Part shown: positions 4,255-61,256 of the stretch, piece after piece
How positions within the stretch are numbered: position 1 is the stretch's first letter
Layout: each line of letters opens with the position of its first letter
DNA from: Psychrobacillus sp. FSL K6-2836
GTDB taxonomy: Bacteria > Bacillota > Bacilli > Bacillales_A > Planococcaceae
Reading direction: 5' to 3'
DNA: 64,000 nt
Assembly: GCF_038003085.1 (NCBI RefSeq)
Contig: NZ_JBBOOM010000001.1
Coordinates: forward strand, 3,100,001-3,164,000
Notes under the pieces: generated by a model
Databases searched by the model: none
What the model saw: the letters and a program-made list of their open reading frames with translations, nothing else
Told to the model about the DNA's origin: nothing
Program-made: the position numbers and the translations under genes

Positions 4255-4515
4255 TCTATACGAGAGCCACCAATTTATGCGATCGGAAAGTTACGCTATA
4301 CGAGAGTGTTGACCTTCGATACGAGAGCGACTAAAGCCTATACGAGAGCCACCAATTTATGCGATCGGAAAGTTACGCTATACGAGAGTGTTGGCCTTCG
4401 ATACGAGAGAAACTAAAGCCGATACGAGAGCCACCAATTTATGCGATCGCAAAGATACGCTATACGAGAGTGTTGACCTTCGATACGAGAGAAACTAAAG
4501 CCTATATGAGAGGGC
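4255..4515. repeat. CGAGAG-type phased repeat array, 82-bp period, about 3 copies
   Basis: An 82-bp unit (CGAGAG cores at 4261, 4343 and 4425) is repeated about three times and trails into a degenerate copy next to the sulfatase stop codon. Within each unit the core recurs at 19-21 bp (4261, a diverged CGATCGG at 4280, 4301, 4322, 4343). 82 is not a multiple of three, so an open frame across the array would change reading frame at every copy; it is not a protein repeat. The same 82-bp architecture recurs at 39.1-39.5 kb with different filler. Confidence 0.9.
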
Positions 4516-4519
4516 CTAC

Positions 4520-6328
4520 TTAGTTCTTACAGCTCGGCATACCTGGAACAGTTCCACTCGTTGGTGATAATCTTTTTTGATTGGATTGTTCGTGGAGTAT
4601 ATTTACTATTATTTTTTGAATAACTTTTGACTCAGGTGTTTCGTTCAAATGAAATGCAAGATTGCATTCTTCCATTGGGTCCCTTGTAACATTGTATAAT
4701 TCATATTGATCTTCGACTGGGGATTGCTTGGTTGTTGTTATACAAATTGCAACTTCCTTCGTATCTGAAACTGGTTGGGAATCTTTCAGATCCTTCTCTT
4801 CATCATCTATTCCAGGATTACTCCAAAATTGAGGGTTATCAAAATACCGAGTAAGCTTCCAAATCTCCTCCGTTTTTTCTTTTCCAGTAGGTAATTTCAA
4901 AATCACCGTTTCTAAATGATTTGGCTGAATAACTGATTCATATGGTTTTCCAGTTACAGTAAACTGGTTCAATCCTTTCGTCACTTCATCATCCGTCATA
5001 AAATATATAGGTTCGTTTGCTCGAGTGAATTTGTTATTCCCGTTTAGCAATTCGGAGAGATCTCGTCCTACCAATGGATGCACTTCGGTATGACTTTTTT
5101 TGAGGTCATTTTGAGCATCGGTAACATCGATATTTGCGAGACCTAGAAGTGTTGGGATAATGTCTAAATGGCTGGTGATCATGTCAGTTTCCTTAGTAGT
5201 AGAAAACTTCGGGCTATGAATAATTAATGGGACATGAAGGGATTCTTCATAAGCATTATGCCATTTTTGAAATAAACCACCATGAGCCCCGACTAAACTT
5301 CCATGATCTGCTGTAAAAACGATAATCGTATCCTCATAAAAAACAGAAGATTGAAGAGCCTGAAATACTTTATACATCTCATCGTCTACCTTTTTTTGAA
5401 GAGAATAGTAAAGCTGTCGATAAAGTAGTGAATCGAACGTTGGCTGAAGTGCTTGTTGATATACATCACGATAACTCAAGTGAGCGGATGGTTTAGTGAG
5501 TAGGTTTTCATTAGCTGTAGGAGCAGGCGGAACAAATGGGAGAGTCGGATCAATTTCAAAATTAAATGTGGGATTGAATCGAGTGAAAAGCCCAAGGAGA
5601 GTAATATCATGAGGATTTACAAAGGAGGACACAATGAGCCAGGGCTGATCGTCTTCTAAATGTGCATTTTTCTCAAGCGAATGAATTAAATCTACGACCT
5701 CGGCTGCATAAACTTCATCCCGACCACTTACACCGACACCAGCAGAAGACCCGGAGTTTCGTGGATTTGACCCATGTGGTTCAGGACCAATCCAACCATC
5801 GAAACCATAATTATTCAAACGATTGGCATGTTCATAAAGTTGCTCTTGTGCACGATTAGATACACCAGTTTTAGTGTTGTAGCTAGGTAGGGCCTTATGT
5901 GTACCCGGAATTAAAATATCCTCATCGGAAAGATGCCATTTTCCTTTCCAATATGTTTGATATCCTGCAGTACGAAAGTATTCGCCTAAAGTAGGTACCG
6001 TATTATGATCTAGCCAAAATACATCAGGGTCGAATGCGCCTTTTGCAACGCCAGTCGTTTGTGTCACACCGTGCAGTGATGGGTATTGTCCAGTAAAAAG
6101 AGTTGCCCTGCTTGGTGAACAAGCCGTACTTCCAATATAATGATTTAAAAATGTCATCCCATTATTTCTTAAAAGCTCTTGTGTTTTTAAATTTTTTACT
6201 CGCCATTTTTTTAAAGCTTCGGTTTCGTAAACAGTCGGAAATCTCTCTTCATCTACAATCATAAAAAGAATATTTGGTCGCTTTTTATGGTGATGAGAAC
6301 TTGAAAAGACTTTATTTGATTTGTTCAA
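4520..6328 (-). CDS. sulfatase family hydrolase (type I, Cys-type)
   Basis: A 602-residue alkaline-phosphatase-superfamily enzyme. The active-site signature C-S-P-S-R lies near residue 70 (STACSPSRATLFTGQYPSLHG); in type I sulfatases that Cys is converted to formylglycine. Other family landmarks are PNILFMIVDEE (metal ligands), YWKGKWHLS and TADHGSLVGAHGG. The length fits aryl/choline sulfatases. There is no signal peptide, so it is probably cytoplasmic. The start is a TTG preceded by GGAGGAG. No formylglycine-generating enzyme or sulfate ester transporter is in the window, so the substrate is unknown. A phospho- or phosphonate-hydrolase activity is possible, since the superfamily is broad. 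Confidence 0.85.
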   Translation of the reverse strand: MNKSNKVFSSSHHHKKRPNILFMIVDEERFPTVYETEALKKWRVKNLKTQELLRNNGMTFLNHYIGSTACSPSRATLFTGQYPSLHGVTQTTGVAKGAFDPDVFWLDHNTVPTLGEYFRTAGYQTYWKGKWHLSDEDILIPGTHKALPSYNTKTGVSNRAQEQLYEHANRLNNYGFDGWIGPEPHGSNPRNSGSSAGVGVSGRDEVYAAEVVDLIHSLEKNAHLEDDQPWLIVSSFVNPHDITLLGLFTRFNPTFNFEIDPTLPFVPPAPTANENLLTKPSAHLSYRDVYQQALQPTFDSLLYRQLYYSLQKKVDDEMYKVFQALQSSVFYEDTIIVFTADHGSLVGAHGGLFQKWHNAYEESLHVPLIIHSPKFSTTKETDMITSHLDIIPTLLGLANIDVTDAQNDLKKSHTEVHPLVGRDLSELLNGNNKFTRANEPIYFMTDDEVTKGLNQFTVTGKPYESVIQPNHLETVILKLPTGKEKTEEIWKLTRYFDNPQFWSNPGIDDEEKDLKDSQPVSDTKEVAICITTTKQSPVEDQYELYNVTRDPMEECNLAFHLNETPESKVIQKIIVNILHEQSNQKRLSPTSGTVPGMPSCKN

Positions 6329-6439
6329 TTTAAAAACTCCTCCATTTATTTTATCTATCTATTTAGCTTATGAAAAATGAAGGAGGTGTAATGGATATTT
6401 AGTCTAGAGAGATGTCCAATTTTTAAACAAAGGAAATAG

Positions 6440-6970
6440 TTACGTAACGTACATACTTTCTAAAATTTGTACAACTTCTTCAACAGGAATTTTCATATCA
6501 TCATTTAACCATTTTCTTATTACTTCAATGGTTCCTCCTGTTGAATAAGAGAAATAATATTCTAAATAAGTATTATTTGCATTTGGTAACTGTTTCTTTT
6601 CTGCGATTGAATTTTCATAGGTAAAATTCAAAATTGTATTAAATACCCGAGAGCTACTTTTTTCATTTAAAATGATTTTGCAGAATTCTTTGTTTTCAAT
6701 TATCAAATTCAATACTCCATGAAGGGATTCGTCTCCTGAATTATTTATTTTACTCATCATATTCTCTATCATTTCATCTTCAATACTTCTCATTAAATCA
6801 AAAGGGTCATTGTAATAAGAATAAAAAGTTCCACGATTAATATCAGCTTCTTTGCAAATCTCAGTTACGGTAATTTTATTTAAGTTTTTTTCCTGAAGTA
6901 ACAGTAAAAAAGCATCTATAATTACTTTTTTACTATATAGGGTTCTTCGGTTTCCTTTTATACCAACCAT
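6440..6970 (-). CDS. TetR family transcriptional regulator
   Basis: A 176-residue regulator. The N-terminal helix-turn-helix is at about 30-55 (NKITVTEICKEADINRGTFYSYYND), typical TetR/AcrR spacing, followed by a C-terminal all-helical ligand-binding domain. It is divergently transcribed from the MMPL transporter gene, the classic arrangement for a local repressor of an efflux pump. A perfect 11-bp inverted repeat lies in the intervening 220 bp. The inducer cannot be told from sequence. Confidence 0.88.
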   Translation of the reverse strand: MVGIKGNRRTLYSKKVIIDAFLLLLQEKNLNKITVTEICKEADINRGTFYSYYNDPFDLMRSIEDEMIENMMSKINNSGDESLHGVLNLIIENKEFCKIILNEKSSSRVFNTILNFTYENSIAEKKQLPNANNTYLEYYFSYSTGGTIEVIRKWLNDDMKIPVEEVVQILESMYVT

Positions 6971-7113
6971 GTATTTCTCCTCCTACTTACCATCAAATCT
7001 ATTTATTATGTCGTTATTTGAACAAAAGTTTTAAAAGTTGTCCTTTTAATAACAGGTAGTTCAACATTGTTTATTGTTATCTTCCAATAGCTTTAATATA
7101 CTATTTCTGTACC

Positions 7114-7156
7114 ATTAAAACAACAGAGTGTTTAAATAATAACTAGTTGTTTTAAT
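7114..7156. promoter_or_regulatory. candidate TetR operator between regulator and MMPL transporter
   Basis: ATTAAAACAAC (7114-7124) and GTTGTTTTAAT (7146-7156) form a perfect 11-bp inverted repeat with a 21-bp spacer, 35 bp before the transporter start. The arm spacing (32 bp centre to centre, three helical turns) suits two dimers or one wide operator. Binding by the adjacent TetR protein is an inference from position. Confidence 0.55.
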
Positions 7157-7190
7157 AGGGAGGGTAATTTAGGATGAAAGGAAGCTTTAA

Positions 7191-9368
7191 ATGGCAAAGT
7201 ATCTTTACAAGTTAGGTAAATGGGCAGCAAATAATAACAAAAAAGTAATCGGAAGCACATTAGCGATTCTCATTGTTATAGCAATCTTTGCACTAAATCT
7301 GGGACCAAATTTTTCGGAAGAGATGACTATACCAGGAACTGAATCAGAAAAAGCGCTTCAACTCATGAAAAAAGAATTTCCATCTAATACGGGTGGTCAA
7401 GTACAGTTAGTATTAAAAGCACCGGAAAATAAAACCTTAGATTCCGAAGAGGTTAACAAAGTAATTAAAGACACATTGATAGCGATAAAAGACAACGACA
7501 ATCATGTTGTTTCTGTAGTTACTCCGGTTGAATTAGGGAATTTAAGTAAAGATAAAAAAATCGGTTATGCGATTGTTGCTTACGATGTAGCAGCCGATAA
7601 AGTATCGGAAAAATCAAAGGACAATATTATTGAAAATATAAAAGAGACTCGTGATGCTGGTATTCAAACGGAGTTAGCTGGTGATGTTGTATTTTCTGAA
7701 CTGGAAATTGGAGGAATCACAGAAGCTATTGGAGTAGTAGTAGCCTATGTTATATTGGCAATTACTTTTGTCTCCTTCTTAGCGGCAGGAATGCCAATCT
7801 TAATGGCAGTTATAGGACTAGCTATTGGTCTATTATTGATAGTGATTGGAACAAATTATTTGGATATTACTTCTGTTTCGATAACCTTAGCTGCAATGTT
7901 AGGATTGGCAGTAGGTATCGATTATGCTCTCTTTATAATGACTCGGTTTAGACAACAAAGGAAAGAAGGATACTCCGTTTCAGAGTCTGTAGCAATTGCA
8001 ACTGGAACAGCCGGCAGTGCTGTAGTGTTTGCTGGTATAACTGTCATTATTGCACTGTTAGGTTTATCTGTTGCACAAATTCCATTTCTAACAATGATGG
8101 GTCTATCTGCAGCACTTTGCGTTCTATTGGCAATATTGATAGCAGTTATTGTGGTGCCGGCCTTTTTAGGAATGATGGGTCAAAAAGTAGGACCAGATAG
8201 AAAAAATACTTTTTTAACAAAAATTAAAAGTGATAAAAAACAGACTACTTCCGATAGATGGGGGAATTTTGTTGCAAAACAGCCGTGGAAGGTTGCGATT
8301 GTTGGAATTGTAGTTCTTTCTATAATTGCGACTCCTATGCTCCATATGGAACTTGGTCTCCCAGATAACGGTTCGAAAAATGAAGAGACAACGGAAAGAA
8401 AAGCATATGATTTACTAACTGAAGCTTATGGACCTGGCCATCATGCAACGTTACTTGTAGTTGCAAAAACCTCAAGTGAAACTACCAATTTACAATTGGC
8501 GTTAAATGATACTATAGAAGAGTTAAGTGGTTTATCAAATGTAAAAAGTGTTAGTCCTGCAATTCCTGGACCTTCAGGTGAGTTATATCTTATTTCTATT
8601 ACTCCAGAGACAGGGTCAAACGATTCAGCAACAAAAGATCTTGTAAATGATATTAGAAAAAGGTCCGATTTCTTGGAAAAATCCGATCATATAACATTAA
8701 TGGTTACAGGTTCTACAGCGGTAAATATTGATATATCACAAAAATTGAGTGATGCATTGCCAGTATTTGCGCTATTAATTATTGGATTTTCATTCGTTTT
8801 ATTGGTACTAGTATTTAGATCTATTTTAGTTCCATTAAAAGCAGTTCTGGGCTTTGTACTTTCTTTAGGTGCAACGCTAGGATTTACGGTATTTATTGTA
8901 CAGGATGGAAACTTGATTGATTTATTTGGATTTCCTATTGCAGATCCAGTATTAAGTTTCTTACCAGTAATAGTAATAGGAATATTGTTTGGATTAGCAA
9001 TGGACTATGAGGTCTTTTTAGTTAGTAGAATGCGTGAAGTATATACACATACAGGAAATGCACGAGAGGCTGTTTTAGCTGGGATGAGAGATAGTGGTGG
9101 AGTAGTTACAGCTGCTGGGTTAATCATGATTTCAGTGTTTACTGGATTTATGTTAGCACCAGATCCAATGATTAAATCAATGGGCTTAGCACTCACATTT
9201 GGTGTTCTATTCGATGCATTTGTAGTAAGAATGGCTATTGTACCTGCAGTAATGATTATAATGGGGAACTCGGCTTGGTATTTGCCAAAGTGGTTAGATA
9301 AAATACTTCCGAATTTAGATATAGAGGGAGAAGCATTTATGAAAGAAGTGGAAAAAAACAAGAAATAA
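7191..9368 (+). CDS. MMPL/RND-family transporter (YdfJ-like)
   Basis: A 725-residue membrane protein with the two-fold layout of the MMPL family: one N-terminal helix (about 21-38), a soluble domain, five helices (about 175-325), a second copy starting with a helix near 365-385, another soluble domain, and five more helices (about 515-705). The conserved GxxxDY motifs are visible as GLAVGIDYALFIMTRFR in the first half and FGLAMDYEVFLVSRMRE in the second. Such proteins export lipids or lipophilic compounds using the proton gradient. It is probably repressed by the divergent TetR protein. The ATG at 7191 follows GAAAGGAAG; an ATG at 7174 is in another frame and only opens a short peptide. Confidence 0.9.
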   Translation: MAKYLYKLGKWAANNNKKVIGSTLAILIVIAIFALNLGPNFSEEMTIPGTESEKALQLMKKEFPSNTGGQVQLVLKAPENKTLDSEEVNKVIKDTLIAIKDNDNHVVSVVTPVELGNLSKDKKIGYAIVAYDVAADKVSEKSKDNIIENIKETRDAGIQTELAGDVVFSELEIGGITEAIGVVVAYVILAITFVSFLAAGMPILMAVIGLAIGLLLIVIGTNYLDITSVSITLAAMLGLAVGIDYALFIMTRFRQQRKEGYSVSESVAIATGTAGSAVVFAGITVIIALLGLSVAQIPFLTMMGLSAALCVLLAILIAVIVVPAFLGMMGQKVGPDRKNTFLTKIKSDKKQTTSDRWGNFVAKQPWKVAIVGIVVLSIIATPMLHMELGLPDNGSKNEETTERKAYDLLTEAYGPGHHATLLVVAKTSSETTNLQLALNDTIEELSGLSNVKSVSPAIPGPSGELYLISITPETGSNDSATKDLVNDIRKRSDFLEKSDHITLMVTGSTAVNIDISQKLSDALPVFALLIIGFSFVLLVLVFRSILVPLKAVLGFVLSLGATLGFTVFIVQDGNLIDLFGFPIADPVLSFLPVIVIGILFGLAMDYEVFLVSRMREVYTHTGNAREAVLAGMRDSGGVVTAAGLIMISVFTGFMLAPDPMIKSMGLALTFGVLFDAFVVRMAIVPAVMIIMGNSAWYLPKWLDKILPNLDIEGEAFMKEVEKNKK

Positions 9369-9430
9369 TACTGTGGTGAGTAACTCTTAAGTAAATTTCT
9401 TAAACTTCATACATTTAGTTGAATAATACA

Positions 9431-9460
9431 AAAAAGGACCTAAAGTAGGTCCTTTTTTTT
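9431..9460 (+). terminator. intrinsic terminator after the MMPL gene
   Basis: AAAGGACC and GGTCCTTT form the stem, with a run of eight T. Confidence 0.9.
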
Positions 9461-9489
9461 AGATAGGAAAGTATAGAAAAATGACCAGG

Positions 9490-9720
9490 GAACACTGAGT
9501 TTTCAGCACTATTAAAAATGAATGAATACTGATTTCGGTTTCAGGTGGTTACAAAGGAACGAAGGCTAGGAGCGTCACCTCATGTGGCAATGCCTTCGTG
9601 ACCAACCTCCTGTTGGCCTCCGCAGGGTGATCCACGAACCATGGAAATAGTAAGTGGTTACTATATAAAGAAGTATTATAGCGAACGAAATTGCATCTTC
9701 GTGAGCTTACTCTAGGAATA
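9490..9720. repeat. dispersed intergenic element, copy A (degenerate)
   Basis: A non-coding stretch whose first about 60 bp match the sequence at 44881-44942: GAACACTG(A/G)GTTT, then GATTTC(G/C)GTTT(C/T)AGGTGG. The GATTT-CGTTT-GG part also recurs at 34098 next to an IS remnant. The rest is GC-richer than its surroundings and does not code in any convincing frame. Confidence 0.5.
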
Positions 9721-19579: not shown

Positions 19580-20041
19580 ATGAACTTATTTAAAAAGTCT
19601 GGTTGGAGCATGGTTGTTCTAGTAATGTTAGGTATTATTTTGCTAGGAGCCTGTTCGGAAGAGGAAACACCAAAAGAAACAGATACGCCAGGTAAACAAT
19701 TAGCGATCATAAAGAATTATGAACTTTCTACCAGAAATCTTGTTTTGGATGAGGTTGAATGGATAGAGGAATCGGACAAAGATAGAATTAAGGAGTTAGG
19801 GCTGGACGTGGAGAAGGACTTACCTACTGGCTTTGTGATGTATAATGAAACAAAAGAAGAATCTAGTATGAAAGTAGCCGAGGATGCAGAGTTCTTACTT
19901 GTTAATCAAGAGAATCCCTCGGAGCCTAGAGTAGTGGATGAGAAGGAATTTATCACCTACTTACTTGGTGTCAAAGGACCTTATTATGTGACAGTTGAAG
20001 ATGATGTAATAGTGAAAGTTGAAGAGAAATATATGCCATAA
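19580..20041 (+). CDS. small lipoprotein, unknown function
   Basis: A 153-residue protein with a signal peptide and lipobox LLGAC near residue 25, hence a lipid-anchored surface protein. The mature part is short and acidic (SEEETPKETDTPGKQ linker, then a compact domain). I recognise no family. GGAGAG precedes the ATG, and a strong terminator follows, so it is monocistronic. Confidence 0.75.
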   Translation: MNLFKKSGWSMVVLVMLGIILLGACSEEETPKETDTPGKQLAIIKNYELSTRNLVLDEVEWIEESDKDRIKELGLDVEKDLPTGFVMYNETKEESSMKVAEDAEFLLVNQENPSEPRVVDEKEFITYLLGVKGPYYVTVEDDVIVKVEEKYMP

Positions 20042-20117: not shown

Positions 20118-20258
20118 AGACTATGGGCTATTTTGTGATTTTATGTGCAGTGGTAATAGTTTTAAGGGCTATATTGGTGACTTTATGGGCGATGCCGTGA
20201 TTTTTTGGCGGATAACAGCAGTTTAAAGGCTAATTCCACATTTTTATGGTCTATCTCA
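20118..20258 (+). repeat. TATGGGC-type phased repeat locus 1
   Basis: Seven degenerate copies of a unit like TTTATGGGCTAT. The GGGC core (or one-base variants) falls at 20125, 20145, 20166, 20187, 20206, 20227 and 20248, intervals of 19-21 bp. No long frame and no gene. It lies between a terminator and the oxidase cluster. Sister loci are at 47.3 and 61.1 kb. Confidence 0.8.
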
Positions 20259-20269
20259 AAATTACCATC

Positions 20270-20310
20270 GTGTTCAAAATCACAGCTACAAGTGATTTAG
20301 AACACTTTTT
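20270..20310 (+). terminator. terminator-like hairpin upstream of the oxidase cluster
   Basis: GTGTTCAAAATCAC pairs with GTGATTTAGAACAC with one mismatch and is followed by TTTTT. It lies 58 bp before the subunit IIa start; it may block read-through into the operon or be a leftover of a lost gene. Confidence 0.55.
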
Positions 20311-23976: not shown

Positions 23977-23987
23977 ATTGTATTGGT

Positions 23988-24625
23988 ATTCGAGAGAGCT
24001 TGTGAGCTATCCGAGAGAGATCGGGGCTTATGCGAGAGAGATTATGGGCTTTACGAGAGAGCTAATCGCATACGAGAGACATCGGGGTTTATGCGAGAGA
24101 GATCATGGGCTTTACGAGAGAGCTAATCGTATACGAAAGACATCGGGCGTTATGCGAGAGAGATTATGGGCTTTACGAGAGAGCTAACCGCATACGAGAG
24201 ACATCGGGGTTTATGCGAGAGAGATTATGAGCTTTGCGAGAGAGATCAAGGGTTTTACGAGAGAGCTAATCGTATACGAGAGAGATCGGGGCTTATGCGA
24301 GAGAGATTATGGGCTTTACGAGAGAGCTAATCGCATACGAGAGACATCGGGGTTTATGCGAGAGAGATCATGGGCTTTACGAGAGAGCTAATCGTATACG
24401 AAAGACATCGGGCTTTATGCGAGAGAGATTATGGGCTTTACGAGAGAGCTAATCGCATACGAGAGGCATTAGGGTTTATGCGAGAGAGATTATGAGCTTT
24501 ACGAGAGAGCCAATCGCATACGAGAGACATCGGGGTTTATACGAGAGAGCCAATCGTATACGAGAGGCATTAGGGTTTATGTGAGAGAGATTATGAGCTT
24601 TACGAGAGAGATCAAGGTACGAGAG
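23988..24625. repeat. CGAGAG-type phased repeat array, about 61-bp period
   Basis: About 640 bp of head-to-tail units. Core-to-core distances run 21, 21, 19 bp, giving a 60-61-bp higher-order unit with about ten copies (for example CATACGAGAGACATCGGGG at about 24069, 24190 and 24333, with variants between). The period is not a multiple of three. It fills the gap between the oxidase operon and the convergent DUF59 gene. Arginine/glutamate-rich frames across it are artefacts. Confidence 0.92.
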
Positions 24626-24709
24626 AGCCTAGCGTCTAAGAACCCTGTTGTGCTTCCGTATGGACTTGCGATTCATCCACTTTAATTCATTTTATTCAAG
24701 CACAAAAAA

Positions 24710-37998: not shown

Positions 37999-38976
37999 AT
38001 GAATCACTTAAAAGGTATGCACCATGTTACTGCAATTACAAGCAGTGCTGAAGAAAATTACAAATTTTTCACTTATGTATTAGGCATGCGACTCGTTAAG
38101 AAAACAGTCAACCAGGATGATATTCAAACCTATCATTTGTTTTTTGCAGATGATGTTGGGGGAGCTGGAACGGATATGACGTTCTTCGATTTTCCAAACA
38201 TTCCAAAGGGGACGCATGGTACAAATGAAATATACCGTACGGGCTTCCGTGTACCGACTGACGCGGCTTTAGATTACTGGGTAAAACGTTTTGATCGACT
38301 AGATGTGAAGCATACTGGAATCCAAGAGCAATTCGGAACTAAAGTATTGTCATTTGTAGATTTCGATGATCAACATTATCAACTAGTGTCAGACGAAAAC
38401 AATAAAGGTGTTGCAGCAGGTACACCATGGCAAAAAGGTCCGATTCCACTAGAGTATGCTATTACCGGTCTAGGTCCGATTACTATTCGTATTGCAGAAT
38501 TTGATTATATGAAAGAAGTGCTTGAAAAGGTTCTATTATTTAAAGAAATTGGACAGAACGGAGCATTTCACTTATTTGAAGTAGGTGAAGGTGGTAATGG
38601 TGCACAGGTTATTGTGGAAAAAAATATCATTCTTCCACCAGGTCGTCAAGGTTTTGGAACAGTTCACCATGCTGCTTTCCGAGTTGAAGATAGAGCAGTG
38701 CTAGATGAATGGACACATCGTATGGAAAGCTTCGGCTTCCAGACATCAGGATTCGTCGATCGTTTCTTTTTTCAATCATTGTATTCGAGAGTTGCAAACG
38801 GAATCCTATTTGAATTTGCAACAGATGGTCCAGGATTTATGGGAGACGAACCATATGAAACTCTAGGAGAAAAACTATCATTGCCTCCTTTCTTAGAACC
38901 AAAACGAGAACAAATCGAAGGACTAGTGCGTCCGATCGACACAGTACGTAGCACCATCGAGTTTGTAAAAGAATAA
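37999..38976 (+). CDS. ring-cleaving dioxygenase, VOC family (MhqO/MhqE-like)
   Basis: A 325-residue protein with two vicinal-oxygen-chelate modules. Metal ligands can be placed at MHHVTAITSS (first His), HHAAFRVED (second module His) and NGILFEFATDGPGF (Glu). The MhqO-type proteins of Bacillus are induced by methylhydroquinone and catechol and are thought to cleave hydroquinone rings. No MhqR-type regulator is in the neighbourhood. GGAGG precedes the ATG, and a terminator follows. Confidence 0.88.
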   Translation: MNHLKGMHHVTAITSSAEENYKFFTYVLGMRLVKKTVNQDDIQTYHLFFADDVGGAGTDMTFFDFPNIPKGTHGTNEIYRTGFRVPTDAALDYWVKRFDRLDVKHTGIQEQFGTKVLSFVDFDDQHYQLVSDENNKGVAAGTPWQKGPIPLEYAITGLGPITIRIAEFDYMKEVLEKVLLFKEIGQNGAFHLFEVGEGGNGAQVIVEKNIILPPGRQGFGTVHHAAFRVEDRAVLDEWTHRMESFGFQTSGFVDRFFFQSLYSRVANGILFEFATDGPGFMGDEPYETLGEKLSLPPFLEPKREQIEGLVRPIDTVRSTIEFVKE

Positions 38977-39013: not shown

Positions 39014-39059
39014 GCATGCGTACATTTGGAAGTGAAAGTAGATACTTTTGACTGTTCTA

Positions 39060-39545
39060 AACGAGAGCCGCCAAGGTCTAAACGAGAGAGTCTGTTCTAT
39101 GCGAGAGAGATCAGCCTCTATACGAGAGAGAAACTGTTCTATACGAGAGCCGCCGAGGTCAAAACGAGAGAGCCTGTGCTATGTGAGAGAGATCAGCCCC
39201 TATACGAGAGAGAAATTGTTCTATACGAGAGCCACCGAGGTCTAAACGAGAGAGCCTGCAATATGCGAGAGAGATCAGCCCTTATACGAGAGAGAAATTG
39301 TTCTGAACGAGAGCGACCGAGGTCAAAACGAGAGAGCCTGTGCTATGCGAGAGCGATCAGCCCCTATGCGAGAGAGAAATTGTTCTAAACGAGAGCCACC
39401 GAGGTCAAAACGAGAGAGCCTGTGCTATGCGAGAGCGATCAGCCCCTATACGAGAGAGAAATTGTTCTAAACGAGAGCCGCCGAGTTCTAAACGAGAGCC
39501 ACCAGTAGCTATACAAGAGAGCAAGTTCCCTATACGAGAGAGCAC
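39060..39545. repeat. CGAGAG-type phased repeat array, 82-bp period, six copies
   Basis: ACGAGAGCC-type unit starts lie at 39061, 39143, 39225, 39307, 39389 and 39471, exactly 82 bp apart. Within a unit, cores are spaced 21, 19, 21 and 21 bp, and the array at 4.2 kb also has an 82-bp unit of four 19-21-bp steps. It starts 47 bp after a terminator and ends 130 bp before the ABC transporter operon. Arg/Glu-rich open frames over it are artefacts. Confidence 0.93.
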
Positions 39546-42711: not shown

Positions 42712-42757
42712 TTCTCCTTAGTTTTTTTACGTGGGAGGTTCTCGAACCACGTTAGTT
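42712..42757 (-). ncRNA. preQ1-I riboswitch of queT
   Basis: On the minus strand, stem CGTGG/CCACG encloses TTCGAGAACCTC, followed by the A-rich tail TAAAAAAACTAAGGAG. This is the class I preQ1 aptamer layout, in which the A-rich tail folds back as an H-type pseudoknot. The tail runs straight into the queT ribosome binding site, so ligand binding should hide it and block translation. Confidence 0.88.
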
Positions 42758-44880: not shown

Positions 44881-45040
44881 GAACACTGGGTTTATAGAAC
44901 TTAGTAGTATGAATAATACGAATGATTTCCGTTTTAGGTGGACGCGTTCCGCGGGGGGAGCGATGAACCATCACCGCCCTTTCGGGTACGTAGTGATGTT
45001 TCATCTTTCTCCCTCATCCCGCTGGAGTCAAAAGAAGCGA
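44881..45040. repeat. dispersed intergenic element, copy C
   Basis: The first about 60 bp match 9490-9548 (GAACACTGGGTTT ... GATTTCCGTTTTAGGTGG). The GGTGGACGCGTTCCGCGGGG part matches the GC-rich block at 34.1 kb. It contains an imperfect hairpin around ATCACC/GGTACGTAGTGAT. Non-coding. Confidence 0.6.
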
Positions 45041-45223
45041 AATCAAAGCCCTTCGAAAACGATAGAAGCAGGTTTTGATCTTCAGGGACAGGGCGTCTTT
45101 TTGACCGGTTTTTCTTATGATTTATATGGTGAAAACAATTCCTAATCATCTTATCCGTTTATTAAGCAATTACTTTTCGATACAATTGGACTAATGAAAA
45201 TAATTATGAATGGAGAGGGATAT

Positions 45224-47106: not shown

Positions 47107-47311
47107 ATACTCTACCCCTTGCTATTTAGTCTAAGCACATCTTACCAGGACTTTATTACGAGAGTATTACGATGACTTACCAATATCGTTACAAATCTTA
47201 ATAATGTTACATCTGAAAATTAACATTCGCAGATTATAGTTTATTAAATAGATTTGCGTTTTATACCAATGGAAACTATATTCCCTGCTGATAGCTCTTA
47301 AATATCTTAAG

Positions 47312-47424
47312 GTAGCCCATAATTCCTCCAAGCTAATTGCTCAAACGGACGAAAGCCCATAAATTGCTCAGTTTAGCCCATAACCCCTCATCAATAACCC
47401 ATAAACAAACGAAGGTAGCCCATA
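47312..47424 (-). repeat. TATGGGC-type phased repeat locus 2
   Basis: GCCC cores (GGGC on the minus strand) fall at 47315, 47355, 47376, 47397 (ACCC) and 47418, steps of 40, 21, 21 and 21 bp, with degenerate cores filling the 40-bp step. The motif reads TATGGGCT in the direction of dapF transcription, just beyond the dapF terminator. Confidence 0.78.
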
Positions 47425-47460
47425 AAAAAAGAACCTCACTAGTTTTCACTAAAAGGCTCT
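47424..47460 (-). terminator. intrinsic terminator after dapF
   Basis: On the minus strand AGAGCCT pairs with AGGTTCT (with G-U pairs), followed by seven T. Confidence 0.7.
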
Positions 47461-47471
47461 CCGGCAATCAA

Positions 47472-48326
47472 TCAATTTATCGGCTCTATTAAAATCTCTC
47501 CATCAAACACACTTACTGCGGGCCCTGTCATAAATACTCCTTCATCGGTGTAGCGTATAACAAGATCACCACCTAATAGTTTTACAGTTATATCGGCGTC
47601 TTTGTCGCAGTGTCCATTTAAGACAGCAGCCACTACTGCAGCACAAGCGCCAGTTCCACAGGCAAGTGTTTCACCACTGCCCCGTTCCCATACGCGCATA
47701 TAAATAGTCTTGCGATTTTCTATCGAGATAAACTCTGTATTTACACTTTCCGGGAAAAACGAATGATGCTCAAATTTAGGTCCAATAAGTGGTAAGTCTA
47801 CTAACATTGGATCTTCCACAAAAACAACACAGTGAGGATTACCCATTGATACAGTTGTGATATGATATGTTTTTTCTTCCACCTCGAAGGGGAAGTTTAT
47901 TAGCGGATTTGATGCTTTTGAATGAACAGGTATAAGAGTTGGCTCTAAAATGGCTTTGCCCATATCTACTTTAGCGGAAGTCATTTTGCCATTTTCGATA
48001 AAAAGTTCAATTGTTTTAATGCCACTTAATGTATCGATGGTTAACACTTCTTTTGTGGAAAGATTATTATCGTACACGTATTTGGCAACGCAGCGGATAG
48101 CATTTCCACACATTTTTCCTTCACTGCCATTTATATTGAACATACGCATTTGAGCATCTGCTATATCAGATGGGCATATTAATACAAGTCCATCTCCACC
48201 AATACCAAAATGTCGGTCAGAGATATGCTTGCTTAGTGTATTGGGATTATCGATAGCATGCTCAAAACAATTAATGTAAATATAATCATTTCCGCAGCCA
48301 TGCATTTTTGTGAATGGTATTTTCAT
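47472..48326 (-). CDS. dapF: diaminopimelate epimerase
   Basis: A 284-residue cytoplasmic enzyme converting LL- to meso-diaminopimelate for lysine and peptidoglycan synthesis. The N-terminal MHGCGNDYIYIN and the two catalytic Cys (GKMCGNAIRC and ACGTGACAA) are all present. Length is typical. It is monocistronic on the minus strand; AAGGAGTT precedes the ATG. Confidence 0.97.
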   Translation of the reverse strand: MKIPFTKMHGCGNDYIYINCFEHAIDNPNTLSKHISDRHFGIGGDGLVLICPSDIADAQMRMFNINGSEGKMCGNAIRCVAKYVYDNNLSTKEVLTIDTLSGIKTIELFIENGKMTSAKVDMGKAILEPTLIPVHSKASNPLINFPFEVEEKTYHITTVSMGNPHCVVFVEDPMLVDLPLIGPKFEHHSFFPESVNTEFISIENRKTIYMRVWERGSGETLACGTGACAAVVAAVLNGHCDKDADITVKLLGGDLVIRYTDEGVFMTGPAVSVFDGEILIEPIN

Positions 48327-52821: not shown

Positions 52822-52826
52822 AGTGG

Positions 52827-53430
52827 GGGCGCATGGCAGCGTGCCTCGGGCGGATACGCTATGCTCTTGGGCGGATAGCGCAAATCCCCGGACGTTCGCT
52901 ACCCTCCCGAGCGGATAGCGACGTGGCTAGGGCGGATAAGTTATGCTATCGGGCGCATGGCAGTCTGGCTCGAGCGGATACGCCACTCTATGGGGCGGGT
53001 AGCGCAAAAATCTGGGACGTTCGCTATCCTCCCAAGCGGATAGCGTCCTGGCTGGGACGGATGCGTTATGCTATCGGGCGCATGGCAGCCTGGCTCGAGC
53101 GGATACGCCACTCTCTCGGGCGGATAGCCCAAAAATCTGGGGCGTTGCTATCCTCCCGGGCGGATAGCGACGTGGCTAGGGCGGATGCGTTAAGCTATCG
53201 GGCGCATGGCAGCCTGGCTCGAGCGGATACGCCACTCTCTCGGGCGGATAGCCCAAAAATCTGGGGCGTTGCTACCCTCCCGAGCGGATAGCGACGTGGC
53301 TAGGGCGGATGCGTTATGCTATCGGGCGCATGGCAGCCTGGCTCGAACGGATACGCCACTCTCTCGGGCGGATAGCGCAAAAATCTGGGACGTTCGCTAT
53401 CCTCCCGAGCACATGACAGCTTGGCTAGTG
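52827..53430. repeat. GGGCGGAT-type phased repeat array, 124-bp period, five copies, GC-rich
   Basis: GGGCGCATGGCAG-type unit starts lie at 52827, 52951, 53076, 53200 and 53324 (124, 125, 124 and 124 bp). Each unit holds six sub-units of 17-23 bp headed by CGGGCGGAT or a variant. It is far richer in G+C than its surroundings. 124 is not a multiple of three, so the Ala/Arg-rich frames in it are artefacts. It starts 6 bp after a terminator and ends 90 bp before the xpt promoter. Confidence 0.93.
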
Positions 53431-53519
53431 CATATACGGCTTTAATCCTAGGCACAAGATACCACTGGTTTGTGAATTTCGACTGAATTTTATGAATCAT
53501 AGAACATATTTGTGGGTGA

Positions 53520-53547: not shown

Positions 53548-53569
53548 GAGAAATATTCAAATAGCAACA

Positions 53570-53638
53570 ACTCGTATAATAGCAGGGATATGGCCTGCAA
53601 GTTTCTACCAGCTTACCGTAAACAAGCTGACTATGGGT
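53570..53638 (+). ncRNA. guanine-class purine riboswitch
   Basis: The aptamer has the purine riboswitch landmarks in order: ACTCGTATAAT, a P2 arm ending GATATGGCCTGC, AAGTTTCTACC, a P3 arm with CCGTAAA, and GACTATGGGT closing P1. The J3/1 sequence GACTATG has C at the specificity position (as in B. subtilis xpt), so it should bind guanine/hypoxanthine rather than adenine. The terminator of the expression platform follows. Confidence 0.92.
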
Positions 53639-53704
53639 GGCGATGAAATACTTGGTTTATGGCATTATTGCCATAATCTATTTTATTTCGATTCGACTTT
53701 TTTA

Positions 53705-53795: not shown

Positions 53796-55660
<1,865 letters not shown>

Positions 55661-56056: not shown

Positions 56057-56258
56057 TGGTACTATATGGGTAAATATGTTTACAGGGGTGAGAATAATAA
56101 AAGATTTTAAAACAGGAAATGAGAAAAAAGTTCAGAAGGTGATTGATGAGAGGAAAACTCCTAATACTAGTCCTCAACCGTTCAAGTTCGTCCAATCTCC
56201 TGATTTATTTAAAAAAAATACATTTAATGAATCAAGAAAGTTTACAATGGGTAGGAAT

Positions 56259-56957
56259 ATGAAAAAAAAAATAAAGTTGACATTTATTAAAAAGTTATTA
56301 GTTATCATTGGGATTCTAGGAATTATATTATTATTCAACTTAAATAACATAACGGATTTTATTGAAGAAAGAAAATTAAATCAAACGGTATATGATAGTG
56401 GGTATTCAGATATGTTAGAAGCAAACGAAAATGATGTGGAAAGTTTAAGTAAAGGTTTAGGTGCTTTTGAATGGATAGTAAGGGTAAATTCTCCTGATGA
56501 TAAAATGATTAAGAAATATAATGAAATCGTTACTTTATATTTAGAGCATGAAGAAGTTAAAAATATAGATATTCACTCATTACCAGATGCTCGTGCAATG
56601 GGATATTATGTTGATGAATTAGAATATATCAATGGAAATTCAAACTATTTAGGTGATTCTCAAAAAGAAATGATAAGCAAATATGATATTGAAAAACTTC
56701 GTGGTATTGTATTATCTTATGAAAACAAAGAAGAACGAGAAAGAGAAAGTTATAATACGACAACTACTACATCAACTACAAAGTATGAACCATTTATAGG
56801 TATGACCGATTATGAAGCAATAGAATCTACATGGGGAAAACCAAAAAGTATAAATAAAACTGAAACTACTTATGGAGTTAAAGAACAATGGGTTTATGAT
56901 AGAGGGAGTTTATATTTTGAAGACCATTATATAACCAGTATTCAAAGTTCAAGATAA
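56259..56957 (+). CDS. membrane-anchored hypothetical protein of the element
   Basis: About 232 residues from the ATG at 56259; the same frame is open from 56076 (293 residues), so the start is uncertain. A transmembrane helix (LLVIIGILGIILLFNL) is followed by an extracytoplasmic domain. The C terminus FIGMTDYEAIESTWGKP ... GVKEQWVYDRGSLYFEDHYITSIQ is a small beta-domain found at the end of many Gram-positive phage or accessory proteins. A Thr-rich linker (YNTTTTTSTTKYE) precedes it. Function is unknown. A terminator follows. Confidence 0.65.
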   Translation: MKKKIKLTFIKKLLVIIGILGIILLFNLNNITDFIEERKLNQTVYDSGYSDMLEANENDVESLSKGLGAFEWIVRVNSPDDKMIKKYNEIVTLYLEHEEVKNIDIHSLPDARAMGYYVDELEYINGNSNYLGDSQKEMISKYDIEKLRGIVLSYENKEERERESYNTTTTTSTTKYEPFIGMTDYEAIESTWGKPKSINKTETTYGVKEQWVYDRGSLYFEDHYITSIQSSR

Positions 56958-56988
56958 ATATATTTCTGTAAAAGGATTAATTCACAAA

Positions 56989-57016
56989 GTCACATCTAAA
57001 TGATGTGGCTTTTTCT
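56989..57016 (+). terminator. intrinsic terminator
   Basis: AGTCACATC pairs with GATGTGGCT, then a T-rich run. Confidence 0.82.
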
Positions 57017-57050
57017 TTTGTCCAAATTTCACACTATAGGAGGTGTTAAA

Positions 57051-57341
57051 ATAGAAAAGTTATTATTCGTCTTCACCCTTTTAGGAACATTCTTTGTTTT
57101 CTTAATAGGTGGATGGCACATATCACTAACAATATTAGTTGTATTCATGGTTATTGATATAATCACAGGTTTAATAAAAGCAGCGATACAGAAAAAATTA
57201 AATTCTAAAGTATCTTATAGGGAATTTTTAAAAAAATCATCCATTATGTTAGTTATCATCATTGCTAACTTGTTGAACGTATTAACTGCATCAGGGTGTC
57301 TGTTTTTAGAACATGGCTATTTCTTTTATATGGGTATTTGA
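57051..57341 (+). pseudogene. phage holin (holin_4/TcdE-like), broken at both ends
   Basis: The protein (EKLLFVFTLLGTFFVFLIGG, ILVVFMVIDIITGLIKAA, SYREFLKKSSIMLVIIIANL) is a clear phage holin of the phi-29/TcdE-type family with three helices. AGGAGGT at 57038 points to codon 57051, which is ATA rather than ATG, so the start appears mutated. The C terminus is cut short by a stop after FFYMGI, about 40 residues early compared with the family. It should be inactive. Confidence 0.75.
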
Positions 57342-57526
57342 GATTGTAGCATTACTGCTATGCTCTTTTTTTTATGTGTTATCATCCTATGTTGCTAAAT
57401 AATAGTAAATGATTTATATTTGAATTAATATGATAGTGAAATGTAGGCGACTATCAAAAATGTGGGATTATTAAAGTAATGAAGTTATTGATATATCAGT
57501 GGTTTAAAAGTAATAGTAATGTGTAT

Positions 57527-57936
57527 CGTTTTCTCAAAACGTAGGGCTTATGCAAATCTCAGGTGTTAAGACGAAAACAGTTATTTATATAACTGGAGCA
57601 ATGCTTATCGTACTTGGCTTCATCCCTAAGATTGCTTCTCTTACAACAATCATTCCTGAGTCCGTGTTAGGTGGAGCAATGATTGCTATGTTCGGAATGA
57701 TTGTAGCACAAGGGATAAAAATGTTAAGTAAAGTAGTGTCCGATACTGAGGATAATTCGATGATAATAGCATGTTCAATTGGTATTGGGCTTGGTGTGAC
57801 AGTGGTTCCTGAGTTATTTGCTGAGTTACCAAAGAACATGAAAATATTGACGAGTAATGGGATTGTAGCAGGAAGCGTGACCGCAATCGTTTTAAATATC
57901 GTCTTTAACATGATTCCAAGAAGAAAAATTTCATAA
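57527..57936 (+). pseudogene. displaced 3' fragment of pbuX (right copy of the 402-bp repeat)
   Basis: Encodes the last about 135 residues of PbuX ending in PRRKIS, without the first two thirds. It is followed at once by a terminator, so it probably represents the original end of pbuX before insertion. Confidence 0.93.
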
Positions 57937-57946
57937 CTTTCTAGAG

Positions 57947-57980
57947 ACTACGAGGGAGATAATCATTCGTAGTTTTTTTT
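57947..57980 (+). terminator. probable ancestral pbuX terminator
   Basis: ACTACGA pairs with TCGTAGT, then eight T, 11 bp after the displaced pbuX stop codon. Confidence 0.85.
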
Positions 57981-58040
57981 TAGCTGTGTATAGTGTACTT
58001 CCTAGCTATTTTCTCCATACTAATGGAGGAGGTGATAAAA

Positions 58041-59008
58041 ATGACAATTGTACGTCTAGGATATGTTGCGATGAGTATGGAACTAAAAAATGCTTCCCCA
58101 TCCAAAACAATGACATTCTCTCAATTTCAAAAATACAGAGATCGTGAAGCTGCAATTTCTAAATTAGAACAGATTGCGCTGGCTAATTTAGAAAATACGC
58201 ATAGACTTCTTAAACATAATATGTTTAGTGAAATTCATTTTTATCGCTTAACTTCTCGAATAATTCCATTAGCCAATCATGTAGATATTCCCGATTGGGA
58301 TTTTATGATACCGTCGATAAAAGAAAAGCTACATGAAATAGGTGAGTTTACGAGTAAACATAATATGAGAATAGATTTTCACGCGGACCATTTTGTTATA
58401 CTGAATTCCTCCAAACCAGAAGTATTAATTAATTCATTAAAAACATTAAAGATGCATTATTTGCTGTTAAAGGAAATGCAGATTGATCCTACCCATCGCT
58501 GTGTTCTTCATATAGGTGGTAACTATAAGGATACAGAAAAATCATTGGAACGTTTTATAAATAACTGGAATGATGTTCCTAGCTCCATTCAAAAGATGAT
58601 CATACTAGAAAACGATGATACTTCTTTTACATTTGACGATACTCTTTATTTGTGCGAAAAATTAGGAGTTCCGCTTGTATTTGATTACCATCATCATCTT
58701 GCCCACCATCGTAACAAAAATTGGGAAGGTAATTGGAATCGAGCAGTGGCAACTTGGGATGATTCTCCCCTTCCTATCAAATGCATATTTCTAGTCCAAA
58801 AAATGAGGCTGAATTTCGTCATCATTCGGACTATGTGGATGTGAATATGTTTTTCCACTTTTTAAAAGAAGTCAAGGAAACGGTTTCGCAGATTGATTGT
58901 ATGATTGAGGCGAAAAAGAAGGATGAAGCTTTGTTTTTCTTAATCGATGAGATTAAAAAAAGGAAAGATGTTGAAATGATTGATGGTTCCTCTTTTTATT
59001 TAAAGTAA
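58041..59008 (+). pseudogene. uvsE: UV DNA damage endonuclease UvsE, frameshifted
   Basis: UvsE homologue (TIM-barrel enzyme that nicks 5' of UV photoproducts). The first frame (58041-58781) reads VRLGYVAMSMELKNASPSK to TWDDSPLPIK. The second frame continues from about 58781 (MHISSPKNEAEFRHHSDYVD ... PQIDCMIEAKKKDEALF-like). Adding one A to the AAA at 58779-58781 would join them into about 322 residues, the normal length. GGAGGAGGTGAT precedes the ATG, so expression signals are intact. This is either a real frameshift mutation or a homopolymer sequencing error. Confidence 0.88.
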
Positions 59009-59114
59009 TTACATCCAGTCGTATTAAGGATTTATGAATCTTGAAAATTTTTCTGCGAGTTGGATATCGACACCAATGAAGGCATTTTTTCATACTATAC
59101 TTTGGGGTGAAAAA

Positions 59115-59555
59115 ATGCCAAGAGTAAATTACAGAAGTAAAGACGTGGACTTAATGGCTAGGATGATGAGAGCAGAAGCCGAAGGTGAAGGTAAACAAGG
59201 AATGTTATACGTTGGAAATGTAATTGTTAATCGTGCTAAAGCTGATTGTTTAGACTTTCAAGATGTAAGAACAATTGAAGATGTCATTTTTCAAGTTCAA
59301 GGAGGAAATTATTCTTTTGAAGCAGTTCAAAAAGGTAATTTGTTTTATGAAAGAGCGAGATCTGTTGAAAAAAGATTAGCAAAAAAGGCTTTGGATTATT
59401 GGAGAGAACATCCAGGGAAATATGCACTATGGTATTTTAATCCATATGCACCTTGCCCTCCTACATGGTATGATCAACCTTTTGCGGGTCAATATAAACA
59501 ACATTGTTATTATGAACCAGCACCTGGAACTTGTGAAAGTGTTTATATGGGGTAA
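59115..59555 (+). CDS. cwlJ: spore cortex-lytic cell wall hydrolase CwlJ
   Basis: A 146-residue SleB/CwlJ (Hydrolase_2) domain protein with no signal peptide, as for CwlJ. It shares with B. subtilis CwlJ the patterns DVDLMARMMRAEAEGEGKQG (catalytic Glu), NVIVNRAKADCLDF, ALWYFNPYAPCPPTWYDQPF and a Cys/Tyr-rich end. It degrades spore cortex during germination. The ATG at 59115 has GGGGTG 5 nt upstream; the frame from 59034 is longer but lacks a site. Linkage to uvsE puts two spore-related functions together. Confidence 0.9.
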   Translation: MPRVNYRSKDVDLMARMMRAEAEGEGKQGMLYVGNVIVNRAKADCLDFQDVRTIEDVIFQVQGGNYSFEAVQKGNLFYERARSVEKRLAKKALDYWREHPGKYALWYFNPYAPCPPTWYDQPFAGQYKQHCYYEPAPGTCESVYMG

Positions 59556-59601
59556 GGAACAATTTAATTTACTTTACTTGATTTGTATTTAAACAACTTT
59601 A

Positions 59602-59644
59602 AAGAGCCATACTACATAGTCTAATGTAGTATGGCTCTAGTTTT
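59602..59644 (+). terminator. strong intrinsic terminator after cwlJ
   Basis: AGAGCCATACTACAT pairs exactly with ATGTAGTATGGCTCT across a 6-nt loop, followed by a T-rich run. Confidence 0.9.
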
Positions 59645-59710
59645 ATGAAAAGAAAATTAAATGATATATTCAACGCCTTATTTGTAAAGTAATTGTAAAA
59701 TATAAAAAAA

Positions 59711-59726
59711 TGTGAGAAAAGTCACT
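59711..59726 (+). promoter_or_regulatory. Crp/Fnr-type box upstream of the HemAT-like gene
   Basis: TGTGA-GAAAAG-TCACT. A TATAAT-like -10 lies at 59758-59763, placing the box centre roughly 50 bp upstream of the expected transcript start, an activating position. Confidence 0.65.
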
Positions 59727-59786
59727 GTGGACAAATTGCCTATTTGCTAGCATATATTATAATGCTTTATAATTAGGAGGTTTGAA

Positions 59787-61073
59787 ATGTTTTGGAAAAA
59801 ACGAAATTTGCCAGCAATCAATCTGTTAAATAATCCTGAAGTTCACTTAGCAATTCGAGATACAGACATTCTATCTCAGTTACAGTTGATTGATTTCTCC
59901 GAAAAAGATCTAGCAAACCTTAAACAAATGGAGTCATTCATGGTGCCTTACATTCCCGGAGCAGTGAAGAACTTCTACGATTCCCTAATGGTAAATGAAA
60001 AATTAGTGGATATTATCAATAAACATAGTTCACGCGATCGTTTAGAACAAACATTGGTAAAGCACTTAGAAGAATGGTTTACCGGAGTTTTGAACGAGCA
60101 ATACATAGAAAAACGTAAGAAAATTGCTAAAATGCATGTGCATATTCAGCTAGAAACGAAAAGCTATTTAGGCGCTTGTTATCAGCTTCAAAATAGTTTG
60201 GTTGAGAAGATACTATTAACTCAACTGCCAATAGAGCCACAAATCCAATTTGTATCATCTTTAAACAAGATAATTAGCTATGAGCAACAATTAGTTGTGG
60301 AGGCTTACGATCAATATGCGGAAGAGCAAGCAAAGGAAAAAGAAGGTGAAATAAAAAGAGCAATCAAAGAGACATTGGGAAATATCGTTACTAACCTAGA
60401 ATATCAATCTTCCGAAACAACTACCTCTGTAGAAGAGCTAGTTGGAACGACAAAAGAAGTGGAGACTGAGGTGGCAAAAAGTATCGAAACCTCCAATAAG
60501 GCGATTGAAAAGGCGGAAACTGGCAAGCAAATTATAAAAACCTTAACTAGTCATTCGCAGGAAATATACGGCAAAACAAATTCCATGTCAGGTTTAATCG
60601 ATAAATTAAACCAATCCTCTCAAGAAATTTTGAATGTTGTAAAAATAGTCAAAGACATAGCGATAAAAACAAATTTACTAGCATTAAACTCAGCTATAGA
60701 AGCAGCGAGAGCAGGTGAGTATGGAAAGGGTTTTGCTGTAGTTGCGGAGGAAGTGCGTAGGCTTGCCGAACAAACCAAGAATTCTGTAGAGCAAATCGAC
60801 TTGCTAATTGGAGTCTCGAACGATGCGCAATTGGAAGTTGTAAAATCTATTGAGGATGTACAGCGTTTAGCAAATATAGGTTTGAAAGAAAGTGACCAAA
60901 CAGCCTTATCCTTAGCGAGTATTTCCATCATGATTCAAGAAGTAGCAGCTGACGCTGAGATAGTCGGCAAGGATATTAATGACTTAACATTTGCAGTTGA
61001 ATCTATTGGAGCGGCGTCCATTCAAATACTAGAGTCTACAAAACTTTTAGATGAGACAATTCAAAAAATTTAG
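59787..61073 (+). CDS. globin-coupled aerotaxis/oxygen sensor, HemAT family
   Basis: A 428-residue soluble chemoreceptor. The N-terminal about 175 residues form a sensor globin ([21 protein letters not shown] opening), with the proximal haem His in [19 protein letters not shown]. The C-terminal half is an MCP signalling coiled coil with the conserved tip [22 protein letters not shown]. Size matches B. subtilis HemAT (about 430 residues). It should report oxygen to CheA. GGAGG precedes the ATG. The Crp/Fnr-like box upstream suggests induction by the same regulator as the 26-31 kb genes. Confidence 0.92.
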
Positions 61074-61120
61074 TTAATCCTTGTAAGCTTATCAGGTGAA
61101 TATGTCGTAAACCTTAGACC

Positions 61121-61256
61121 TTCTATGGGCGGTTGGTTGCAGTTTTAGAGCTATTTGCGAAGCTTTAAGGGTTATTATTTGGTTTAAGGGCTTGCAGTAC
61201 AGATATGGGCTGTATAAGAAGGCTTAAGGGCTATATTAGTAGTTTTACCGGGCTTT
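61121..61256 (+). repeat. TATGGGC-type phased repeat locus 3
   Basis: GGGC cores (or one-base variants) at 61127, 61148, 61169, 61188, 61207, 61228 and 61250, intervals of 19-22 bp, in filler like TTTAAGGGCTAT. It begins 48 bp beyond the HemAT-like stop codon and reads in the same direction as that gene. Confidence 0.78.

Follow-up and report, generated by a model that had tools for sequence, protein, structure and literature searches.

Iterons are direct repeats that lie in the same direction approximately two helical turns apart. The repetitive extragenic palindromes and bacterial interspersed mosaic elements (REP/BIME) of enterobacteria are palindromic, dispersed, extragenic, often located past the 3' ends of genes, and clustered. 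Bacterial minisatellites, or variable-number tandem repeats (VNTRs), are made of near-identical tandem units that change evenly along their length and that grow and are lost in blocks. Clustered regularly interspaced short palindromic repeats (CRISPR) have repeats of roughly 21-48 bp, spacers that are unique and longer than the repeats, and cas genes. PMC6193735 describes the binding sites of LytTR-type regulators as 9-bp direct repeats with a spacer of mostly 12 bp and, in a minority, 11 or 13 bp. Here we describe a group of intergenic repeats in a 64-kb stretch (referred to here as the window) of a 4.23-Mb Psychrobacillus chromosome contig (G000:C1:3100001-3164000). A short word, the core, recurs within them in the same direction (judged by inspection) at a nearly fixed step, separated by spacers of varying sequence, and we refer to each such row as an array.

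We tentatively propose that the arrays are DNA-level rows of half-sites for DNA-binding proteins arranged head to tail, with the core under selection, and we place the probability of this proposal a little short of even. The proposal draws together a rigid step of two helical turns, cores that are shared while spacers vary freely, the indifference of the commonest families to gene direction, and a fast replacement of cores.

Step length, abundance and core families

The initial annotation placed seven loci in intergenic DNA, with cores of three families recurring at a mean step of approximately 20.5 bp. All seven hold the repeats described, while the step and the number of families needed correction. 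Counting each distinct spacer once, for gaps of 12-32 bp in Psychrobacillus DNA, we found a step of exactly 21 bp in most cases (380 of 443 gaps, summed over seven families); the value of 20.5 arises from averaging steps of 21 and 19 bp. The 21-bp step accounts for 132 of 166 gaps in CGAGAG, 89 of 97 in GCAAGTA, 98 of 113 in CCACATA, and 34 of 36 in GTTGCG, and among the smaller families for 15 of 17 in ATCGCAA, 7 of 8 in TATGGGC, and 5 of 6 in CCGATTA. A second mode lies at 19 bp in CGAGAG (19 cases) and CCACATA (13 cases) and at 20 bp in GCAAGTA (5 cases), and across all families the 20-bp step occurs 7 times and the 22-bp step twice. Phasing by two helical turns, as first suggested, is borne out by the 21-bp step, and the higher-order block periods of 61, 82, 103, and 124 bp are approximately sums of 21s and 19s.

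The window and 80 further stretches of 20 kb from the same genome (1.664 Mb in total) were surveyed for chains of at least three identical 7-mers at a lag of 19-22 bp and at five control lag bands. Genes were long open reading frames (ORFs) called by script without a gene finder, and the classes of neighbors and gaps given here rest on these. At a lag of 19-22 bp there were 46 such clusters between genes, spread over 39 gaps, versus 2, 2, 3, 13, and 3 at the control bands; once the 15 of these 23 control clusters that fall within or next to the arrays are set aside, 2, 2, 2, 1, and 1 remain. Inside genes the corresponding counts were 9 versus 3, 3, 3, 6, and 7. In 400 kb from congeners (20 stretches, 4 of which were picked because arrays were present), there were 18 intergenic clusters versus 0, 0, 0, and 0 at the controls, 9 of the 18 coming from the 4 array-chosen stretches and one, in L400, resembling another repeat. 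Furthermore, whole-genome counts of core pairs at array spacing, with the reversed core pattern as control, were 236 versus 22 for CGAGAG, 123 versus 0 for GCAAGTA, and 100 versus 0 for CCACATA.

Rather than three core families, inspection of this genome yields at least nine, namely CGAGAG, TATGGGC, GGGCGGAT, GCAAGTAAA, GAATCGCAAG, GAATCGCTAGAAT, GTTGCG(TAAA), CCACATAA, and CGCTCGAG; some of these may be variants of others in the list. Further cores, seen in congeners, are TTCCAACTAAA, CCGATTAT, GCAACCA, and AATTTGCG. Pairs of CGAGAG number 236 in our genome (G000), 113 in G006, 82 in G004, and 38 each in G007 and G017, with few in the remaining genus genomes. GCAAGTA pairs number 340 in G008, 123 in G000, 66 in G006, and 61 in G007; each of the remaining 15 genus genomes has 0-3, and the control pattern matches once across all 19. 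The 100 CCACATA pairs of G000 all lie on the main contig, and there are 28 in G007 and none in G004 or G006. The CCACATA loci are bunched, 13 of 17 falling within G000:C1 1.0-1.4 Mb, one tenth of the chromosome, and the G007 copies lie mostly in what appears to be the corresponding chromosome region.

Among 76 loci fetched for dapF relatives only, we found 15 intergenic clusters at 19-22 bp versus 4, 5, 5, and 3 at the controls, and clear arrays with other cores are present there in Allobacillus, Alkalibacillus, Aquisalibacillus, Tenuibacillus, and Sporosarcina luteola. Other genera of the window's family, sampled in 18 pieces (325 kb), yielded 1 cluster versus 2, 1, 1, and 1, which is the background level, and G022, from another genus, showed no enrichment of CGAGAG pairs (15 versus 13 in reversed-pattern controls). 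Our data indicate that the array trait is patchy, yet not limited to Psychrobacillus.

Constraint on cores and turnover of sites

We compared 12 orthologous array pairs between G000 and G007 and found that identity over aligned sites was 0.915 in cores (711/777), 0.750 in spacers (897/1196), and 0.917 in 200-bp flanks (4220/4602). In the six pairs with three or fewer gaps in the G000 array, 277 of 304 core and 310 of 470 spacer positions are identical, gaps being counted as differences. Among 15 arrays whose higher-order copies align ungapped by period, 40 of 576 core columns are variable (6.9%) versus 116 of 960 spacer columns (12.1%; Fisher p 0.0012, treating columns as independent); the strict rule behind these counts was written after a looser count had been seen, and it excludes 62 blocks whose copies are gapped or too few in number, 11 that contain no listed core, and 23 that overlap. 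Cores were less variable in 10 of the 15 arrays, with 1 tied. The lower variation of cores supports the earlier suggestion that a protein binds the arrays, although no nucleoid protein could be identified.

Six of the seven window loci (4.2, 24, 39, 47.3, 52.8, and 61.1 kb) are recovered by the chain test. It misses the locus at 20.1 kb, seen only by a looser reading; this array (20118..20270, +) lies past a terminator-like hairpin after gene 19580-20041(+) and is weak, with TATGGGC at 20122 and 20184 and TAAGGGC at 20163. The largest array (23987..24637, +) holds 29 exact CGAGAG cores in a convergent gap and is followed at approximately 24660 by a lone GGACTTGCGATT remnant of a second family. 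CGAGAG also forms an array at 4236..4516 (+), with 9 exact cores plus variants in three 82-bp blocks, which lies 3' of a sulfatase-like gene (4520-6328, -) and runs opposite to it, and another at 39050..39544 (+), with 22 exact cores in 5.4 blocks of 82 bp, after gene 37999-38976(+). A TATGGGC array (47290..47427, -) lies 3' of dapF (47472-48326, -), a TATGGGC/TTAAGGGC array (61118..61256, +) lies 3' of a chemotaxis-receptor-like gene (59787-61073, +), and a GGGCGGAT array (52826..53440, +) of 4.7 blocks of 124 bp follows a terminator-like hairpin. The block periods of 82, 61, and 124 bp reported earlier were reproduced by Tandem Repeats Finder (82 bp at 4.2 and 39 kb; 61, 82, 143, 204, and 265 bp at 24 kb; 124 bp at 52.8 kb). 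Neighbors of the arrays comprise the sulfatase-like gene, dapF, an ABC transporter ATPase, a SUF-type protein, the chemotaxis receptor, and several genes without a match. The dapF gene is 86-90% identical to its counterparts in four Psychrobacillus records, which is the basis for assigning the host to this genus.

The initial annotation proposed testing whether different families occupy the same sites in relatives, and they can do so. At the 39-kb site, which carries CGAGAG in the window, we found GCAAGTAA in L055, a degenerate GAGCGAGTA form in L058, and CGAGAG together with GCAAGTAA in L056. In the 24-kb convergent gap, CGAGAG lies toward the left gene and CTTGCGATT toward the right gene; G007 shows both families, while G008 retains CTTGCGATT and mere remnants of CGAGAG. 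At the 3' site of dapF, inspected by eye in 19 species, the TATGGGC array is clear in 5, decayed in G007, and not seen in 13. Transposons, including miniature ones (MITEs), are marked by defined ends, target-site duplications, and empty sites. The 52.8-kb site is empty in L057 and in G007, and by eye no target-site duplication or repeated ends were seen at this one site. Across distinct G000 sites with both flanks found in G007, an array is also present there at 13 of 17, a biased figure in that most G007 pieces were fetched for arrays (of 19 rows, 1 mapped to another array and was dropped, and 2 were one locus).

Several other features lie in or near these sites. One unit of the 124-bp GGGCGGAT block (window 52880-53420) is reversed and by eye forms a hairpin of approximately 9 bp, and a purine riboswitch (53552-53653, +; Rfam gathering match) lies shortly past this array. 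Other Rfam gathering matches in the window are a PreQ1 riboswitch (42712-42756, -), a BsrC RNA (62804-62891, +), and a Bacillaceae-1 RNA (9550-9616, +). A GC-rich dispersed repeat with seemingly inverted halves lies between two genes at 44930-45060 and is missing in P. psychrodurans (L055), and elements that look similar occur behind dapF in L348 and, in L058, at the 52.8-kb site.

Neutral growth of minisatellites would offer another account, in which 21-bp duplications in unconstrained DNA past terminators expand by slippage and unequal exchange and are spread by ectopic gene conversion, which homogenizes the cores and makes them look conserved. We regard this account as possible but doubtful. 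It fits the block periods of 61-265 bp, the fast change of unit number between species, and the empty sites. Furthermore, the bunching of CCACATA (13 of 17) and the sharing of a family by neighboring loci are what local copying predicts, in a biased sample: neighbors share a family in 27 of 70 cases, a value reached in 54 of 5000 shuffles, and the loci were partly fetched for holding such arrays. However, spacers differ between loci and cores do not, cores are less variable even in recent ungapped copies, and conversion tracts would not be expected to end at the core edge every time. The earlier suggestion of amplification by slippage stands for the enlargement of blocks (82, 61, and 124 bp), to which unequal exchange may be added, and is not supported as the whole story since cores are common to the whole genome while spacers are not.

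Position of the arrays and what might read them

The statement that each locus begins just beyond the 3' end or terminator of a gene was borne out. Of 45 clusters with both neighbors known, 27 lie in tandem and 18 in convergent gaps and none in a divergent gap, and 1 further cluster lies at an edge. Counted by gap, 0 of 38 are divergent versus 127 of 621 gaps of at least 120 bp in the own-genome survey (chance of approximately 2e-4). When targeted loci were added (n = 71), there were 42 tandem, 24 convergent, and 1 divergent, with 3 in ORFs taken as spurious and 1 at an edge. By inspection, several arrays lie beyond a terminator-like hairpin. In tandem gaps, CGAGAG runs with the gene in 7 cases and against it in 6, and GCAAGTA with the gene in 7 and against it in 8. 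Since the GC skew of the contig flips between 2.16 and 2.21 Mb, the replication origin is likely located there. The lean toward the leading strand is mild in CGAGAG (11/18) and GCAAGTA (18/27) and strong in CCACATA (15/17), where it is inseparable from gene direction.

The claim that the arrays are non-coding agrees with our data, as stops occur in all six frames in 12 of 16 arrays. Its supporting argument, that the block periods are 1 mod 3, is weak because the base unit is 21 bp. Coding repeats were rejected as a candidate on these stops and on the 19-bp steps, which break frame; one frame is open in each of the other 4 arrays.

Each family has a non-palindromic core of approximately 8-16 bp whose copies share one direction within an array (by inspection) and mostly lie exactly 21 bp apart, corresponding to two turns of B-DNA. 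We hypothesize that a sequence-specific protein would bind these copies head to tail on one face of the helix, touching its neighbors, and several related proteins, or one fast-evolving kind, might read the different families. These proteins may serve an architectural role as insulators or chromatin anchors in the DNA past terminators, which is free of promoters and where such rows would leave promoters undisturbed. Arrays would grow by segmental duplication of several units and would shrink or decay by mutation.

A number of observations weigh against this hypothesis. No binding protein was found, and a genome with nine or more families would require either many different proteins or broadly specific ones. 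The idea of same-face phasing agrees with the two-turn spacing, but 20- and 22-bp steps are rare and 19-bp steps are common in two families, a pattern stricter than same-face tolerance predicts or helical phasing requires. If indels are rare after tandem copying, the scarcity of 20- and 22-bp steps could arise without constraint; rigid contacts are the other possible cause. CCACATA is not orientation-neutral in tandem gaps, running with the gene in 10 cases and against it in 1. Some sites, such as those at 52.8, 47.3, and 24 kb in G007, are empty or decayed in a near relative, which means that no array is essential by itself. As cores are alike, alignment can match non-orthologous cores and may thereby inflate core identity with G007; the comparison of ungapped copies escapes this weakness and points in the same direction. 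In that comparison, cores were more variable than spacers in 4 of 15 arrays, and the looser count that includes gapped blocks was weaker (cores 328/953 versus spacers 663/1663, p 0.006).

A broader form of this hypothesis is a bacterial chromatin system with a fixed 21-bp pitch and a head-to-tail class of proteins past terminators, whose recognized words are replaced by lineage across Bacillaceae and Planococcaceae, with sister species differing at partly the same sites. We consider this broader form unlikely. Searches for repeats by sequence family would miss a class whose step is constant and whose sequence is interchangeable. If proteins bind, the arrays would represent a wide DNA-organizing system in culturable genera, read by proteins whose specificity changes fast. 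If nothing binds, they would be an unusual example of non-functional DNA that seems constrained, and a caution for motif discovery.

It is improbable that the arrays are iteron-like decoys that titrate the replication initiators of plasmids or phages, with one family per element. Two-turn head-to-tail repeats are the geometry of iterons, and many unrelated families with one step would be in keeping with such decoys. However, no convincing plasmid or viral counterpart emerged. Two arrays were compared with 72,556 plasmid records by blastn, a blunt tool for drifting spacers; one gave a single 34-bp archaeal match and the other none. Viral contigs gave scattered, chance-like pairs, with two-match loci numbering 0 of 46 in one scan and, in the other, 2 among the 80 loci listed out of at least 120 (L206 and L273, each with two GCAAGTAA matches). 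Rep_3, the only Rep type searched, is absent from G000 and present in 1 of 19 genus genomes.

Marginally less probable still is that the arrays are binding sites of LytTR-type regulators. The sites described in PMC6193735 have the same 21-bp step, and some cores resemble sites listed in it (ACCACATAA versus ACCACTTAC). The number of LytTR genes, however, does not track arrays (5 in G000, between 2 and 6 across the genus, and between 0 and 8 in 18 further genera of the family), and at least nine core families exceed five proteins. No array core occurs as a 19-22 bp pair in the 1.9-2.5 kb around four of the five LytTR genes, where the operon start of the L486 gene may fall outside its piece and the promoter of the fifth gene was not scanned. 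Separately, two copies of GGATGAATGA, a sequence other than the array cores, form a 21-bp direct repeat immediately upstream of one LytTR gene (L483 447-478), which fits self-regulation.

We attach an equally small probability to a function at the RNA level, with arrays acting as decoys or processing sites in 3' transcripts. Arrays do follow gene 3' ends, and CCACATA shares the direction of the gene in 10 of its 11 tandem gaps. The two commonest families are nevertheless indifferent to gene direction, and several arrays lie past a terminator-like hairpin. Among 16 arrays folded over their first 300 bases on both strands, 13 gave no z-score below -2; the exceptions are the 52.8-kb array (both strands, with z-scores of -2.4 and -2.8, the lowest among window arrays) and the 24-kb array and L463 (one strand each). 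A search of Rfam at gathering thresholds gave no match at the window arrays.

RNA-guided DNA binding by TnpB/TldR-like proteins or Argonaute, with cores set by guides, is highly improbable: one protein with changing guides would account for one step with many cores, and several cores consist of TTTA followed by a GC-rich word, but several others lack TTTA, PF07282 (TnpB) is absent from G000 (congeners not searched), and PF02171 (Piwi/Argonaute) is found in 0 of 19 genus genomes (IscB and Cas not searched).

Comparison with known systems

Our search of the open-access literature, by titles and abstract openings and with most subscription papers outside its reach, returned no description of such arrays. 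Like CRISPR, the arrays alternate a constant word with varying spacers of near-fixed length; unlike CRISPR, their cores (approximately 8-16 bp) and spacers (approximately 5-13 bp) are far too short, and there are many families. They share tandem block growth and loss with minisatellites, and near-identical tandem units are found for the 61-265 bp blocks only. Within the 21-bp unit only the core repeats, and cores, unlike spacers, are shared between loci and species. Similar to REP/BIME, they are dispersed, extragenic, and past 3' ends, whereas their units are not palindromic, 13 of 16 arrays show no folding excess, and many cores share one step; the 52.8-kb block does have a hairpin.

Compared to iterons, the arrays likewise consist of direct repeats at a step of approximately 20-22 bp. 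They differ in being dispersed at dozens of chromosomal loci, in having many families, and in their unconserved spacers. No cognate Rep gene or replicon accompanies them as far as Rep_3, absent here, and the window flanking genes, which are ordinary or unmatched, can tell. With LytTR sites, as described in PMC6193735, the arrays share a 21-bp step of short non-palindromic half-sites, although the 19-bp mode does not fit. LytTR sites form one pair upstream of a promoter, whereas arrays are rows past gene 3' ends, with 0 of 38 gaps divergent. Array cores are unpaired at four of the five LytTR genes, with incomplete promoter coverage, in contrast to the autoregulatory copy that marks LytTR systems. 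Since the arrays lack at least one defining feature of each class as tested here, we assign them to none of iterons, LytTR sites, REP/BIME, minisatellites, or CRISPR. Rows of iterons and of LytTR sites are the best models for how the arrays might work.

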